Assembly: GCA_020692355.1 (NCBI GenBank)
Contig: JAIMKP010000019.1
Location: 20,664-55,589, forward strand
Origin: Desulfosporosinus sp.
GTDB lineage: Bacteria; Bacillota; Desulfitobacteriia; Desulfitobacteriales; Desulfitobacteriaceae
DNA: 34,926 nucleotides
Reading direction: 5' to 3'
The notes under the pieces are model-generated. The model did no database searches, had not been told where the DNA came from, and was given only the letters and a program-made list of their open reading frames with translations. Shown here one piece after another: positions 9,540 to 33,191 of the stretch (the stretch's first letter is position 1; each line of letters begins with the position of its first letter). Made by a program: the position numbers and the translations under genes.

Positions 9540-9565
9540 TTCAACTTTAGTTGAACGAGTTCACT
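9540..9565. repeat. Inverted repeat, left copy
   Basis: A 26-base sequence containing the palindrome TTCAACTTTAGTTGAA followed by CGAGTTCACT. Its exact reverse complement lies at 10220-10245, on the other side of the PH-domain gene. No target-site duplication or transposase is visible. Confidence 0.75.
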
Positions 9566-9569
9566 AGTT

Positions 9570-10181: not shown

Positions 10182-10245
10182 ATGTTCGCTAATCCAATGG
10201 AAAAATCCTGCTAAACGAAAGTGAACTCGTTCAACTAAAGTTGAA
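10182..10245 (-). repeat. Inverted repeat, right copy, with CAGGA repeat
   Basis: Positions 10220-10245 are the exact reverse complement of 9540-9565 (AGTGAACTCGTT then CAACTAAAGTTGAA). Next to it on the minus strand is CGTTTAGCAGGATTTTTCC and then GCGAACAT, related to 9570-9600. It lies in the probable 5' leader of the PH-domain gene. Confidence 0.7.
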
Positions 10246-10249
10246 CATC

Positions 10250-10360
10250 GAGACTTCGGTGGGGGAGTCTACCTCCTTCGCCGCCAAGTGTTCCTATTGG
10301 GAAAGGCGGCTCAGCGATACTCATCCTCAGCCGTGAGGTCATCCGTTGACAGTTGGCGGC
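10250..10360 (-). ncRNA. Candidate structured leader RNA, class unknown
   Basis: Several hairpins fall between the hfq terminator and the PH-domain gene. In plus-strand coordinates, AGACT 10251-10255 pairs with AGTCT 10266-10270. GCCGCC 10280-10285 pairs with GGCGGC 10305-10310 (inner TTCC/GGAA at 10291/10300). CCTCA 10325-10329 pairs with TGAGG 10334-10338. GCCGCCAA 10280-10287 can instead pair with TTGGCGGC 10353-10360, so two exclusive folds exist. I do not recognise a known riboswitch class. It could also be a dispersed repeat with no RNA function. Confidence 0.4.
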
Positions 10361-10400
10361 TTCGACAATCCACCAGATTCATACTTTCTGACGGGATAAT

Positions 10401-10487: not shown

Positions 10488-10736
10488 CTACTCCTTCGGA
10501 TCGTCGCTGGCCGTCGCTTGAGCCAGGTTAATCGGACGAATCGGCATCACCGTCGAAATCGCATGTTTGTAAACCATTTGCTGCTTGCCTTCGAACTCCA
10601 GAACCACGGTAAAATTATCAAATCCCCTGACGATACCCTTGAGTTGAAATCCGTTGACGAGGTAAATCGTCACGGGCAAGTTTTCCTTACGGACTTGGTT
10701 GAGAAAACCATCTTGCAGATTGATGGATTTATTCAT
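10488..10736 (-). CDS. hfq: RNA chaperone Hfq
   Basis: An 82-residue Sm-like protein that forms a ring and binds A/U-rich RNA, helping small RNAs pair with mRNAs. The first motif, [20 protein letters not shown], then [20 protein letters not shown], and the second Sm motif, [10 protein letters not shown], match Firmicute Hfq closely. The tail after residue 70 is short and polar, as in Gram-positive Hfq. The gene follows miaA by 35 bases, the common miaA-hfq arrangement, and ends at a strong terminator. Confidence 0.97.
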
Positions 10737-10771
10737 GTATCTCCCTCCATCACCAATGTTTACTACTTATA

Positions 10772-11716
10772 TTATTCTACACGAGAATCCTGTACTCTGC
10801 AAGTCTTAACAAGAGCTTGCAGGACGGCATCCCACTTTATTTCTGCCACATTATACCACTGCAGGCGCGGATCCCGTTTAAACCAGGTTAACTGTCGTTT
10901 GGCAAAATGTCGGGTATCCCGCTGCATGAGTCGGAGCATCTCACCCTTCGTCACTAAACCACGCAGATACCAGATGGCATGCCGATAGCCGATGCTTTTT
11001 AAGGGTTTTAAAGTAGAGGAATACCCCTGCTGCAAGAGCTTCAAAGTTTCTTCGATGAGGCCGTCGCGAACCATCTGTTCGCAGCGGCTGTTAATGTGTT
11101 GATAGAGGACGTCCCGGGGGGCGGTTAAGCCCACATAGACCACAGAATCTGGAAGTGCTGCATATTCGTTGTCTGCAAACTCGCGTTGGCTCGAAAGCGA
11201 TCTTCCGGTCAGATCATAGACTTCCAAAGCCCGAATGATGCGCTGGACATCGTTAGGATGCAGACGGGCTGCGGTTTCCGGATCGCGTGATTGCAAAGCT
11301 TGATGCAACATCCTCTTCCCTTGCTTGCGCAGATATTCCTCCCAGGCCCTGCGAATACGAGGTGAACCGCTTTCCAGAAAGGTGTAAGGATCGAGAAGGG
11401 AACGAATATAGAGTCCCGTCCCACCCACGACGATAGGAACCCGTCCACGATCACGAATCTCGGTGATTAAGCGCAGTGCCTCTTCCTTAAACTGAGCCGC
11501 ACTGTACGGTTCATCAACTTCTAAACGATCGATAAGGTGATGTGGAATTCCCTGCTGTTCTGGCAAACGAGTTTTCGCGGACCCAATATCCAGACCTCGG
11601 TACACTTGCACAGAATCTCCGGAAACAATTTCCCCGTCCAGTGCTTTGGCCAGTTCCACTCCGAGAGTGGACTTACCGACAGCGGTCGGCCCCACAATAA
11701 TTACCAACGGGAGCAA
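10772..11716 (-). CDS. miaA: tRNA dimethylallyltransferase MiaA
   Basis: A 314-residue enzyme that adds a dimethylallyl group to N6 of A37 in tRNAs reading UNN codons. It shows the P-loop GPTAVGKS, the substrate-binding stretch EIVSGDSVQVYRGLDIGSAKT, the VVGGTGLYIRSLL motif and the RDTRHFAKRQLTWFKRD C-terminal motif. The TTG at 11716 is chosen as the start. GAGGTG lies six bases before it and the product then begins MLPLVIIVGPTAVGKS, like other MiaA proteins. The longer reading from ATG 11737 would place this site inside the gene and would begin within a tandem repeat. It supplies the substrate for MiaB, encoded upstream in the same block. Confidence 0.95.
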   Translation of the reverse strand: MLPLVIIVGPTAVGKSTLGVELAKALDGEIVSGDSVQVYRGLDIGSAKTRLPEQQGIPHHLIDRLEVDEPYSAAQFKEEALRLITEIRDRGRVPIVVGGTGLYIRSLLDPYTFLESGSPRIRRAWEEYLRKQGKRMLHQALQSRDPETAARLHPNDVQRIIRALEVYDLTGRSLSSQREFADNEYAALPDSVVYVGLTAPRDVLYQHINSRCEQMVRDGLIEETLKLLQQGYSSTLKPLKSIGYRHAIWYLRGLVTKGEMLRLMQRDTRHFAKRQLTWFKRDPRLQWYNVAEIKWDAVLQALVKTCRVQDSRVE

Positions 11717-11734
11717 AAACCTCACCTCTGTATG

Positions 11735-11770
11735 CATTCCCTATACATTCCCTATACATTCCCTATACAT
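11735..11770. repeat. 11-base tandem repeat before miaA
   Basis: CATTCCCTATA occurs three times without interruption (11735-11745, 11746-11756, 11757-11767), followed by CATT. On the minus strand each copy supplies GGGAATG, with its ATG in a different frame because 11 is not a multiple of three. It lies in the gap between the methyltransferase stop and miaA. Confidence 0.9.
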
Positions 11771-11783
11771 TAAACATTTCCTA

Positions 11784-12599
11784 TTAATCCGACTCGATCA
11801 CCCCATAATCCACTTGGCTGTACCTACCACTTTCGACCACTTCAAAGCCTAAACGGGCGAATTCTCGGCTTCCTTTGCGCTCTTTAAGCACGACGCGCTT
11901 ACGGGCCACACGGCAGGCTGCCGCGATCGTTTCGCGAGTCAACTCCCCATGCTCAGCATAGGCATGGAGCGGACGGATGCTGGCTGACTTCGTGCGCGTC
12001 CTGCGGAACATCGGATCAAAATAGACCACATCGAAAGTCTGATCCCCCAAGTTCTTGAGAAACTCCCCGTGTTCCTCCCAGCAAACCTGAATCCTTGGAG
12101 CAGCCTCAAACAAACCGACCCAGGCTTTTGCTTTAGCGGCAGAAACTCCGACCACATCATGCCTTGCGCCCAAGGTTGCCAAGCCGTCTTTCACGAGGGC
12201 AGCAAGTATCGCCGCCTGTTCAATCCCCACCACGCTCCCCTGGGGCCCAACAGCAAAGGCAGCGACTAAAGCATCCGTGCCCAACCCCAGGGTCGCATCC
12301 AAGAGGGCATCTCCTGGTGTCAGTCCGGTGGCTCCGAGAAAACGATCCGCTTGGCCGCGCTCGAGATTCATAAGCCTCAACAAGGCCATGCTTGGGTGAA
12401 AGCGCAGTCTCTCCTCCCCTGAAAGGAGAATCACTCCTTTGCGGCTAATGTGAAGTTCACTCACAGTTCCTCCTTGCAGGGGCTCGACAGCAGCCAGGAT
12501 GATCCCAGGTTGGTGGAGAAACCACTCTAATTTGGCGTGCAAGCTTTGATCACCAGGATGGGTTAGCTTGAAGCGGATTGGAAAAGGCTGTGCATTCAT
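11784..12599 (-). CDS. Class I SAM methyltransferase, RsmJ-like
   Basis: A 271-residue soluble protein. The SAM-binding motif is DATLGLGTDALVAAFAVG (about residues 100-117), with the acidic second motif at VVGIEQ. The catalytic-type motif is VVYFDPMFRRTRTKSASIRPL (DPMF), very similar to the RsmJ/YhiQ family that methylates 16S rRNA G1516 in gammaproteobacteria, and to uncharacterised Firmicute relatives often found near mutL and miaA. DPMF in place of DPPY suggests guanine-N2 methylation, but the real substrate is unproven. The ATG at 12599 overlaps the mutL stop in an ATGA, so translation is probably coupled to mutL. The N-terminal 90 residues are less conserved. Confidence 0.8.
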   Translation of the reverse strand: MNAQPFPIRFKLTHPGDQSLHAKLEWFLHQPGIILAAVEPLQGGTVSELHISRKGVILLSGEERLRFHPSMALLRLMNLERGQADRFLGATGLTPGDALLDATLGLGTDALVAAFAVGPQGSVVGIEQAAILAALVKDGLATLGARHDVVGVSAAKAKAWVGLFEAAPRIQVCWEEHGEFLKNLGDQTFDVVYFDPMFRRTRTKSASIRPLHAYAEHGELTRETIAAACRVARKRVVLKERKGSREFARLGFEVVESGRYSQVDYGVIESD

Positions 12600-14479
12600 A
12601 TCCGGTAAAATCTTCTTTCCAATTCGTTTTTGGACAGTTGAATCATGGTTGGCCTTCCATGCGGGCAGGTGTACGGATTTTCCGTTTTAGCTAAGCGATT
12701 TAAAAGCTGCTCCATCTCCAGGAGAGATAATGACTCCTGCGCTTTAAGCGAGGCTTTACAAGCCAAGCGATAAATCCATTCCTCCAAGAGCTGATCAAAG
12801 GAAGGGGCTGTTTGAGTGGAGAGGATGGTGTCGATAAACTGACGCAACAGTTCCTCAGCAGACAAGGGAGCCGCCTGCACCGGAACGGCTCGGAGTAGAT
12901 ACGTCTGCGCCCCAAACTGTTCGAGCACGAACCCCAGTTTGTCCAAGGCCCAAAGATATTCCAAAACAATTTGCTCTTCTTGCAGTGTGAGTTCAAAAGG
13001 TATAGGGATAAGCAACGCTTGGCTTTGGGTTTCGCGCTCCTTTGTCTCACGCAGAAACGCTTCATAATTGATGCGTTCATGGGCTGCATGCTGATCGATT
13101 ACAACCAGTACTTTGCCATCGGTCGCCAGAATATAAGTACTAAAGACCTGCGCGAGCGGCCAGAGGCCCAACGTATCCGAAGAAATAAGGGATTGCTTCC
13201 AGGTTGGGACACTATCGTTCGGCGCTTCGACGGGCCCTAGCACCCCATTGGTCGCTCCTTCTCCTTCTCCTTCTCCTTCTCCTTCCCCTGATATCATAGG
13301 ACTATCCAAGTTCTTTAAAGCCTTCATCACCTCTAAGGCTGCACCGGGGTTTTCCCGATAGCCCCGCTCTTTTTCCCAATAGGTCGACGTTTTTTCCGCT
13401 ATGTGTCCGGATTCATCTCCAGTGTTTTCCAGAGGAATGCCCATCCCCATTCTCGGATGCTTTTCCGCTCCCAGAGACGGCAATGGACTTTTGCTTAAAA
13501 GCGCTTCGCGGATTCCCTCGGCGATAAACTGAGCCAGCTCCTGCTCACGAACAAATTTTACATCCATCTTCGTAGGATGGACATTAACATCATACTCCCC
13601 TGGAGGAAGGTGCAGATGCAAAATCGCAATCGGGTATAGTTTTGCCGGAATCAGGGTATGGTAACCATCCAGCAACGCCCGGGTCAGAAGAGGGGAACGG
13701 ATATAGCGCCCATTGACGATGAATGTCAGCGTTTGCCGATTGGAACGGACCAAATCCGGCGGGCTGATATACCCTGCCAATAGCCAGCCTTCTCGGGCAA
13801 AGGAAACCGGGAGCAGGCGACGGGCCAGATTCGCCCCCAACATGGCGGCGATGCTTTCCAAGGGTTTGCCTCGGCCAGGGGTCTGAAAGATGGCTTGGCG
13901 CGGATGTGAGAGGCTAAAGGCCACATCAGGACGAGCCAGGGCCAAGCGCCCAACCGTATCACTGATGAGCCCAAATTCGGTATTGTTCGAGCGCAGAAAT
14001 TTGAGCCTGGCAGGGGTATTGAAAAACAAGTTCTCTACCGTCACCGTGGTACCCACCGGACATCCGGCTTCTTCAAGCTTGAGCGCCGTCCCGCCTTCGA
14101 GCCTGAGAATATGGCCGACGGACTCCTCAGGTGGACGAGAAAGGATTTCCAGCCGCGCCACAGAAGCAATACTCGGTAGTGCCTCACCGCGAAATCCGAG
14201 GGTCGTCAATGTGTTGAGATCCTCGATCTCACGGATTTTACTCGTCGCGTGTCGCAACACGGCCCGTGTCAGGTCATCCGCCTGGATCCCCAGCCCATCA
14301 TCGCGAACCCGCATGAGCGGCACCCCATTACCTTCTACCGCGATGTCAATCCGCCGCGCTCCTGCGTCCAGCGCGTTCTCTACCAACTCTTTGATCACGG
14401 AAACAGGGCGCTCAACCACTTCCCCAGCAGCAATCTGGTTGGCGGCATGGGGATTAAGGACGTGGATCACTGGGGCCAA
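12596..14479 (-). CDS. mutL: DNA mismatch repair protein MutL
   Basis: A 627-residue mismatch repair ATPase and endonuclease. The GHKL ATPase domain has ELVENALDAG (31-40), DDGLGI and GFRGEAL (96-102). The C-terminal domain has the nuclease motif DQHAAHERINYE (462-473), plus ACKASLKAQE and CPHGRP (605-610), so it is the nicking MutL type found in bacteria without MutH. Between them lies a variable linker with an uninterrupted (Gly-Glu) run at 398-408 coded by a six-base tandem repeat. The TTG at 14479, nine bases after AAGGAG, is preferred; GTG at 14470 is possible. It overlaps the deacetylase-like gene by 26 bases and the methyltransferase gene by 4. It acts with MutS, encoded 3 kb upstream in the same direction. 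Confidence 0.96.
   Translation of the reverse strand: MAPVIHVLNPHAANQIAAGEVVERPVSVIKELVENALDAGARRIDIAVEGNGVPLMRVRDDGLGIQADDLTRAVLRHATSKIREIEDLNTLTTLGFRGEALPSIASVARLEILSRPPEESVGHILRLEGGTALKLEEAGCPVGTTVTVENLFFNTPARLKFLRSNNTEFGLISDTVGRLALARPDVAFSLSHPRQAIFQTPGRGKPLESIAAMLGANLARRLLPVSFAREGWLLAGYISPPDLVRSNRQTLTFIVNGRYIRSPLLTRALLDGYHTLIPAKLYPIAILHLHLPPGEYDVNVHPTKMDVKFVREQELAQFIAEGIREALLSKSPLPSLGAEKHPRMGMGIPLENTGDESGHIAEKTSTYWEKERGYRENPGAALEVMKALKNLDSPMISGEGEGEGEGEGATNGVLGPVEAPNDSVPTWKQSLISSDTLGLWPLAQVFSTYILATDGKVLVVIDQHAAHERINYEAFLRETKERETQSQALLIPIPFELTLQEEQIVLEYLWALDKLGFVLEQFGAQTYLLRAVPVQAAPLSAEELLRQFIDTILSTQTAPSFDQLLEEWIYRLACKASLKAQESLSLLEMEQLLNRLAKTENPYTCPHGRPTMIQLSKNELERRFYRI
13255..13284. repeat. 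Six-base tandem repeat inside mutL
   Basis: CTCCTT is repeated five times in a row. On the coding strand this gives alternating GAA GGA codons. Changes in copy number would add or remove Glu-Gly pairs without shifting the frame. Confidence 0.95.
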
Positions 14480-15800: not shown

Positions 15801-17441
15801 TTAACTGATCCTCCCTCGCACTCCTGGTGGAACATGAAGCGCACCGCGCACGATCTGTCCCACGGTTTTGAATTCTTGCACGATTGGAAAAAAGTCAAAC
15901 TCCTCTTTCTGAGCATCGCGTAGATCAATCCCCTGGGCGGCAGCGAGGCGCAGAGCGACCTGTTCAAGAAAGGTATCAACTTCTAGGTGCGGTCGTTTCG
16001 AGCCTTCCCAAATCCCCTGCTCTCCGGTTTCTTCAATACGAAAACGGCGCAACACGGTATCAAGATGAAGTGTACAGGAAAACGTCGGTCGCGCTAAGGC
16101 GGCACCGATGGCATTGGAAACCTCAGGGTATCTGCCGATCCGCACTTTTGTGTGCAGGCGTTCTTCGAGATAGGTTTTGAGCCCGCTAGCGCATCCGCCA
16201 CTGGCCCAGACATGAAGCTGTAAAGCCTCATGTGGGTGTAGAACTCCCCAAATCTTGTAGGCTGGCTCCTCCCGCCACTCCTTTTCCAAGCTTTCGATTT
16301 CCTGGGCAATCCGCTCCGCAACCATTTGCAGGATGTGCTGGGCCGTTTGAGCAAGTTCCTGGGGTTGCATTAGGGATGCCAAAGCCGCTCCCGCTTTCTG
16401 GCGGTCGCCGAAGGGAACAAGACCGAGATAGCACATGGCATCCGTCGGGGTCGGTACGGGCCCACCCAGGCAAAAGGCCGGCCCCAGACGATATCTAGCT
16501 AAGCTCAGTTCCTTTCCCTGGCGTATAACCGCAGAATCTCCACCAACTGGAACCGAGCGAACGGCCAAGGAACGGACAAGGGTGGCAAACGGCCCGATTT
16601 GCGCCCCGCGCGAACTCAAGAGTGGGGAATTCGAGAGAACGATCCCTAAGTCCGTTGTCGTCCCGCCAATATCAACGACCACAAAGGATGAAGCATCAGT
16701 TTGGGCCATCGCCCCTAACACACTGGCAGCCGGGCCGGAATAGACGGTTTCTACGGGTCGAATTCGGCTCAAGGGCAGAACCCCGCCGTCTGCTTTAAGT
16801 ACCATGATTGGAGCTCGAATACCGCGCTGGGCCACGGCTTGTTCTAAACCAGAAGCAAATTGCGTAAAAAGCTCAGTACTCGTCAAGTTAAGGTAGGCCG
16901 TTAAGCTACGACGATAAAAATTCGCTTGGCCCCAGTCATGCCCTAGGGCAATATGGGCCTGGGGATCGGCTTGGCGAAACACGGTCGCCAAGCGTTCTTC
17001 ATGGATTTTATTGCGGTGAGAAAACTTGCCGACAATGGTTACGAGGTTTGATTCTCTCTCTTTCTTCCACTGTTGGGCGGCACGGTACCATTCCAAGTCA
17101 TTGGGCTGAACCACTTCCCGGCCACGGTAATCTATCTCCCCGGACAGAACTTCATAAGGGATGGGCCAAGCGAACGACTCCATTTTCATACCCGACCCTG
17201 GGAGGAGATAGACTTTTCCTTCGGGCAAGCGCCTTTGTAGAATTCCGTTCGTCACAAGGGTTGTGCTCACGGTGATATGCTCCAATTCTTTCCCTGCTAC
17301 ATCGAGTTGATCCAGGGCATTGAGTAGGGTCAGCAGCAGGTTTTCCTGGGTCGGCACTTTGGTCTTTTTGGTGATGACGCCCTCTGTGAGCAGAACCGCA
17401 TCGGTAAAAGTCCCCCCCACATCAATCCCAACTTGGCTCAT
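15801..17441 (-). CDS. Hydantoinase/oxoprolinase (HyuA)-family protein
   Basis: A 546-residue soluble protein of the HyuA/oxoprolinase ATPase-like family, related to acetone carboxylase and N-methylhydantoinase subunit A. The N-terminal phosphate-binding stretch GIDVGGTFTDAVLL (residues 4-17) and the second site VVDIGGTTTDLGIVL identify the actin-like ATP fold. HITVSTTLVTNGILQRR is the typical HyuA_N segment. At 546 residues it is shorter than most HyuA proteins (about 650-700), and no HyuB partner is present. It therefore may not be a classical hydantoinase. AAGGGGG precedes the ATG at 17441. It follows mutS by 13 bases and abuts the deacetylase-like gene, which suggests these two work together on one substrate; that is inference. 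Confidence 0.85.
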   Translation of the reverse strand: MSQVGIDVGGTFTDAVLLTEGVITKKTKVPTQENLLLTLLNALDQLDVAGKELEHITVSTTLVTNGILQRRLPEGKVYLLPGSGMKMESFAWPIPYEVLSGEIDYRGREVVQPNDLEWYRAAQQWKKERESNLVTIVGKFSHRNKIHEERLATVFRQADPQAHIALGHDWGQANFYRRSLTAYLNLTSTELFTQFASGLEQAVAQRGIRAPIMVLKADGGVLPLSRIRPVETVYSGPAASVLGAMAQTDASSFVVVDIGGTTTDLGIVLSNSPLLSSRGAQIGPFATLVRSLAVRSVPVGGDSAVIRQGKELSLARYRLGPAFCLGGPVPTPTDAMCYLGLVPFGDRQKAGAALASLMQPQELAQTAQHILQMVAERIAQEIESLEKEWREEPAYKIWGVLHPHEALQLHVWASGGCASGLKTYLEERLHTKVRIGRYPEVSNAIGAALARPTFSCTLHLDTVLRRFRIEETGEQGIWEGSKRPHLEVDTFLEQVALRLAAAQGIDLRDAQKEEFDFFPIVQEFKTVGQIVRGALHVPPGVRGRIS

Positions 17442-25526: not shown

Positions 25527-25551
25527 GTAAGACCCCTCCTAAACTATCTTG

Positions 25552-25925: not shown

Positions 25926-25969
25926 GTCCTTCCAATGTCCTTCCAATGTCCTTCCAATGTCCTTCCAAT
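25926..25969. repeat. 11-base tandem repeat, four copies
   Basis: GTCCTTCCAAT is repeated exactly four times (25926-25936, -25947, -25958, -25969). On the minus strand each unit is ATTGGAAGGAC, so each copy carries a GGAAGGA resembling a ribosome binding site. It lies between the M23 peptidase terminator and the small gene. Confidence 0.95.
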
Positions 25970-33087: not shown

Positions 33088-33118
33088 CAGACCGTAGACA
33101 AATCAGCTCAAGGGTAGT

Positions 33119-33162
33119 ACAATAAGCATACAATAAGCATACAATAAGCATACAATAAGGAT
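33119..33162. repeat. 11-base tandem repeat before toxin-antitoxin genes
   Basis: ACAATAAGCAT occurs four times (33119-33129, -33140, -33151 and -33162; the last copy has G for C). It lies upstream of the antitoxin; a TATATT at 33162-33167 just after it could be the -10, so the array may include the -35 region. Confidence 0.95.
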
Positions 33163-33191
33163 ATATTATTGCTATCAAGAGAGGTGATTGC

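Follow-up and report, generated by a model that had tools for sequence, protein, structure and literature searches.

An 11-base tandem array in the rsmJ-miaA gap of a Desulfosporosinus genome, most likely an ordinary slippage locus

Slipped-strand mispairing at bacterial variable-number tandem repeats (VNTRs, or minisatellites), together with its effects on spacing, has been reviewed (PMC3899988). Several short-repeat systems have also been described individually. In Xanthomonas and Nostoc, intergenic heptamers are dominant and their length varies extensively between close relatives at conserved places (PMC4692102). In the Beggiatoaceae, TAACTGA repeats lie just before start codons, and binding by S1, Csp or Csr, with a post-transcriptional action, has been suggested (PMC4679880). 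In Salmonella, a copy-variable 6-bp repeat in mutL acts as a mutability switch (PMC2955026). The open-licence PMC literature yielded neither a published description of the array reported below nor relevant work on 11-bp repeats.

Here, we describe an 11-base array in Desulfosporosinus sp. (assembly GCA_020692355.1), found in a 34,926-nucleotide stretch of contig JAIMKP010000019.1 that we call the window. The exact period-11 tract of CATTCCCTATA (minus-strand unit TGTATAGGGAA) runs from 11735 to 11771 and holds 3.4 copies, and Tandem Repeats Finder (TRF) extends it to 11731–11771 with 3.7 copies and a score of 75. Three full copies, beginning at 11735, 11746 and 11757, are exact, just as the sequence-only reading that prompted this work had reported. 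Such near-perfect head-to-tail repetition is far beyond chance: about 6e-12 tracts of this kind are expected in the window, three third-order Markov sequences of 683 kb contained no array of at least 2.5 copies, and a chance origin is excluded. The unit occurs at no second place in 984,671 bases of the same genome, and the doubled unit occupies a single place across the whole assembly, which led us to reject a dispersed or mobile repeat unit. We consider the array very probably to be a nearly neutral slippage minisatellite, specific to the genus as far as it has been sampled.

All genes around the array lie on the minus strand, and they include mutS, mutL (12596–14479), a gene for an rsmJ-like SAM methyltransferase (11784–12599; PF04445), miaA (10772–11716; 314 residues, IPP transferase PF01715) and, downstream of miaA, hfq (10488–10736; PF17209). 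Both mutL and rsmJ lie upstream of miaA and probably belong to the same operon. The open reading frame list would start miaA at ATG 11737, within the last repeat junction. We rejected this start because in all 29 family loci compared (out of 43 relatives with a match) the conserved GPT/GK motif is preceded, at a distance of exactly 24 nt, by a GTG, TTG or ATG codon, and in the present genome the codon at that position is TTG 11716. In front of it, on the minus strand at 11719–11730 and outside the exact array, is a putative ribosome-binding region containing GAGGTGA, a good Shine-Dalgarno sequence complementary to the 3' end of 16S rRNA. TTG 11716 is thus most likely the start of miaA, and the array would therefore lie wholly within the 67-nt rsmJ-miaA gap (11717–11783, minus strand), upstream of the ribosome site, where it takes up most of the space behind the rsmJ stop codon. 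The sequence-only reading had placed it in front of miaA, which holds, and at the 5' end of that gene, which does not. Among the 27 relatives in which the gap could be measured, it is 13–14 nt long in 17, at most 22 nt in 22 and 43–109 nt in 5, and none of the 27 carries an array there.

Our collection contains one other genome of the genus, G001, from a sister species with about 97% identical DNA and an rsmJ protein 99% identical, so that the comparison is one between species; both are drafts, of 101 contigs for the present genome and 270 for G001. The G001 contig that passes through the array reads TTTAATGTATAAGGAATGTATAAGGAATGCATGCAG and then ends, where the present genome reads TTTAATGTATAGGGAATGTATAGGGAATGTATAGGGAATGCATACAG. 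G001 thus has two copies of a variant unit and the present genome has three units, a whole-unit difference in which the G001 count is read at a contig end, 7 nt past the last ATG of the array. The variant differs by a single G-to-A change that is identical in both G001 copies; copies are identical within each genome and one base apart between the two. In the 7.7 kb beside the array the genomes are 97% identical with just two gaps, one of which, of 21 nt, falls at a hexamer array in mutL. MiaA itself was not matched in G001, which is 83% complete.

Other arrays vary in the same comparison. Only 4 of the 46 exact arrays that we list for the present genome have both flanks matched in G001 DNA, and all four differ in length (26 versus 32, 28 versus 17, 26 versus 40 and 31 versus 10 nt, present genome first). 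The 31-nt array is the mutL hexamer; beside the 28-nt array lies a heptamer tract that is much longer in G001. An 11-mer among the four, at L120:3324-3351, has one unit fewer in G001, while the two versions of an array inside a gene at L084 differ by 6 bases, less than its 9-base unit, and so do not fit a clean change of whole units. For the other two strong 11-base arrays of the window no G001 counterpart was found, the neighbouring proteins giving only distant matches and the DNA search none. The neighbourhood of another 11-mer, at L121, was not found in G001 as a single block, and a G001 11-mer at L153 met broken-up matches in a repetitive region of the present genome that gave no clean comparison. 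The mutL array itself (13255–13285) consists of 5.2 in-frame copies of CTCCTT that encode a Gly-Glu repeat in a linker, and it is nearly absent from G001.

The array is variable and homogenised, as slippage predicts: whole units change and the copies within a genome stay alike. We propose that the array began with the duplication of a local sequence in the rsmJ-miaA gap and that whole 11-base units would then have been gained and lost by slipped-strand mispairing or unequal recombination, the same process keeping the copies of one genome identical. Its survival would reflect the tolerance of the gap to changes in length: this region is non-coding, the ribosome-binding site and start of miaA are intact, and rsmJ and miaA are probably on one transcript. 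Any effect on miaA is probably small. The most plausible is a weak change in translational coupling from rsmJ to miaA, since the usual length is 13–14 nt and the gap would have grown from this to 67 nt; we expect at most an alteration of this kind.

A stronger role is conceivable if unit gain and loss switched or tuned miaA and the downstream hfq by way of upstream ATGs, coupling or spacing. Copy number does differ between the sister genomes, and the longer gaps in 5 of the 27 relatives indicate that gap length is free to change. The sequence-only reading was also right that the repeat ATGs fall in different frames: those on the minus strand at 11770, 11759, 11748 and 11737 are in frames 0, 1, 2 and 0 relative to miaA, so that the full copies cycle through all three. 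It went on to propose that a change in copy number would alter upstream starts or spacing, and here the predictions point the other way. Reading from the ATGs of the three full copies ends at a stop codon after 8, 9 or 28 codons, and an SD-like AGGGA abuts each of these ATGs; ATG 11737 is the sole open in-frame extension of miaA among the repeat ATGs, and AGGGA directly abuts it too. The conserved TTG start keeps its own Shine-Dalgarno sequence outside the array, and the predicted probability that this sequence is unpaired stays at 0.33–0.38 for 0 to 7 copies. Folding of the leader and gap RNA was predicted to be no better than that of shuffled sequences (z -0.12), and we set aside RNA structure of the gap as an explanation. 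No promoter or terminator match was found in 11600–12000, and a promoter within or next to the array was likewise rejected. Copy number is thus not predicted to alter promoter spacing, frame or ribosome access, and miaA is a housekeeping tRNA-modification gene, not a gene for a surface structure. Taken together, we regard phase-variable control as unlikely.

Less probable still is a reading of the array as an expanding cluster of CsrA sites just upstream of the miaA Shine-Dalgarno sequence, with the number of units setting CsrA control of miaA and hfq. Each minus-strand unit carries AGGGA (AAGGA in G001), which fits the motif ANGGA, between self-pairing AUGUAU arms, and successive motifs are 11 nt apart. 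The RNA unit GUAUAGGGAAUGU resembles the SELEX consensus RUACARGGAUGU and the ANGGAN loop (PMC7652899). The single base that differs between the two genomes is the N of ANGGA; the motif is therefore present in both unit variants, which pure neutrality does not require. The present genome encodes one csrA (E 1e-20), and miaA of Escherichia coli is reported to respond to CsrA/CsrB (PMC12249760). Against this, the ACA that is fully conserved in the consensus reads AUA in the array unit, the predicted hairpins have little stability (0 to -0.3 kcal/mol between units, -2.1 kcal/mol at the last arm), and the ANGGA overlaps SD-like sequence. Of 31 arrays located 5' of a gene, just 2 have ANGGA in the sense orientation, both of them in the window. 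We also found no csrA in G001 (83% complete), in G002, a genome from a neighbouring genus, or in G003, the latter two being 97–98% complete, yet the gene was found in 35 of 45 family genomes. On this evidence CsrA control through the array is very doubtful, and we return to the near-neutral slippage minisatellite as the preferred reading.

The sequence-only reading had further pointed to three arrays with an 11-base unit in the window, all intergenic and with unrelated units. This is borne out, TRF finding all three as strong arrays, and none of the three recurs elsewhere in the 984,671 bases. The second (GTCCTTCCAAT, 4.0 copies) lies at 25926–25969, upstream of a small predicted minus-strand open reading frame, and the third (TACAATAAGCA, 4.2 copies) at 33118–33163, upstream of a Phd/YefM-ParE toxin-antitoxin pair; TRF lists two weaker 11-base arrays as well, at 16559 and 33067. 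The unit of the third array starts with TACAAT, and its first copy, together with TAGACA at a distance of 17 nt, forms a sigma-70-like promoter before the toxin-antitoxin pair in a scan that expects 0.8 such matches by chance. A -10 element may thus have been the origin of the third array.

Other kinds of repeats are also present. A dispersed element at 10209–10364 of the window, matched in inverted orientation over 26 bases at 9540–9566, looks MITE-like; it has 49 BLAST matches in 32 of the 61 sources of the present genome, and there are many matches in G001 as well. A hairpin-like sequence of about 50 bases at 25546–25598 matches several places in G001, and two more dispersed elements, at L120:5380-5480 and 10490-10750, have many copies there. 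Intergenic heptamer tracts of GAAGTCA, GGAGTCA and their relatives are numerous in this genus and in genus g2, with examples at L089, L095, L110, L120, L195 and L204 of the present genome, L154 of G001 and L161 of G002. For one of these tracts, in L120, the G001 counterpart is several times as long. The L120 heptamer tract abuts a short stretch of N just before 15082, so this draft assembly may interrupt long tracts.

From the three window arrays the sequence-only reading had suggested a common mechanism that produces units of about one helical turn in 5' regions. We examined 984,671 of the 3,361,528 bases of the genome (29%), consisting of the window and 60 stretches chosen non-randomly, by contig number, with genes predicted by a home-made hexamer caller. 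With a minimum of 2.5 copies, the sample yields 46 exact arrays; these are exact runs, some of which neighbour one another within compound tracts (L110 3974-4046, L120 15082-15186 and L123 9051-9107), and they correspond to about 41 separate tracts. Heptamers are the commonest, with 18 arrays, followed by 6-base units with 6 and 11-base units with 5, and the other lengths are rarer. The strong 11-mers of the window, three intergenic arrays within 35 kb, do form a local cluster, being 3 of the 5 in the sample (post hoc P about 4e-4), and the sample contains neither 10-mers nor 13-mers. Outside the window, however, a scan for an excess of 11-base units found none: they make up 2 of 42 exact arrays, as against 18 heptamers, and 4 of 76 arrays by TRF. 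In 480 kb of G002 the unit lengths spread from 5 to 21, and 11-mers account for 1 of 37 arrays. All 23 of the 7- and 11-base arrays are intergenic, though 84% of the sequence is coding, and of the 11 arrays that fall in predicted genes, 10 have a unit length that is a multiple of three; we attribute the intergenic location to selection against frameshifts in genes. On the unit-length spectra of the two genomes we reject a helical-turn mechanism, which is largely refuted within the 29% sampled and highly improbable overall.

The unusual feature of the genome is its overall repeat load, not the 11-base unit. Exact arrays number 47 per Mb in the present genome, 77 in G002 and 79 in G001 (from 7 arrays in 88 kb); the figure is 9 in eight other family genomes (560 kb) and 2.8 in 80 Bacillota loci, all of them around miaA and not a random sample. 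Scored by TRF, the present genome and the Bacillota loci lie closer together (54 versus 27 per Mb).

An error of short-read assembly in the array or its copy number, which the draft status of both genomes, the G001 contig that stops just beyond the array and the N run beside another tract (L120) might suggest, is hardly credible, since a 37-base array would fit within one short read with unique flanks and G001 has the array independently, with a different unit base.

The array in the rsmJ-miaA gap is most likely an ordinary slippage locus, with no sign of a switch. Its value lies in its setting: the genus and the neighbouring genus represented by G002 are several-fold richer in short arrays than the other sampled members of the family, and all the arrays open to comparison between the sister species differ in length. 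The sister pair offers a convenient natural system in which to study how fast and how far repeats grow in Bacillota, and strain typing could use the arrays as markers.

Set beside the published systems, the locus shares several features and differs in others. Like bacterial VNTR loci (PMC3899988), it has head-to-tail units, whole-unit differences between relatives and identical copies within a genome; unlike them, it has a unit of 11 in three copies, lies in an intercistronic gap of a housekeeping cluster and has no known phenotype. The genome resembles those of Xanthomonas and Nostoc in being rich in intergenic arrays of variable length among which heptamers are dominant, but there one G-rich heptamer occurs at many places, whereas the 11-mer of the miaA gap is private to one (PMC4692102). 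The Beggiatoaceae likewise have short repeats ahead of start codons; theirs is one shared heptamer at 169 sets, while the present genome has no shared 11-mer (PMC4679880). The nearest parallel to the mutability switch of Salmonella is the neighbouring array at 13255–13285, which is also a copy-variable hexamer in mutL, but one that is in frame and lies in the linker between Pfam domains (PMC2955026).
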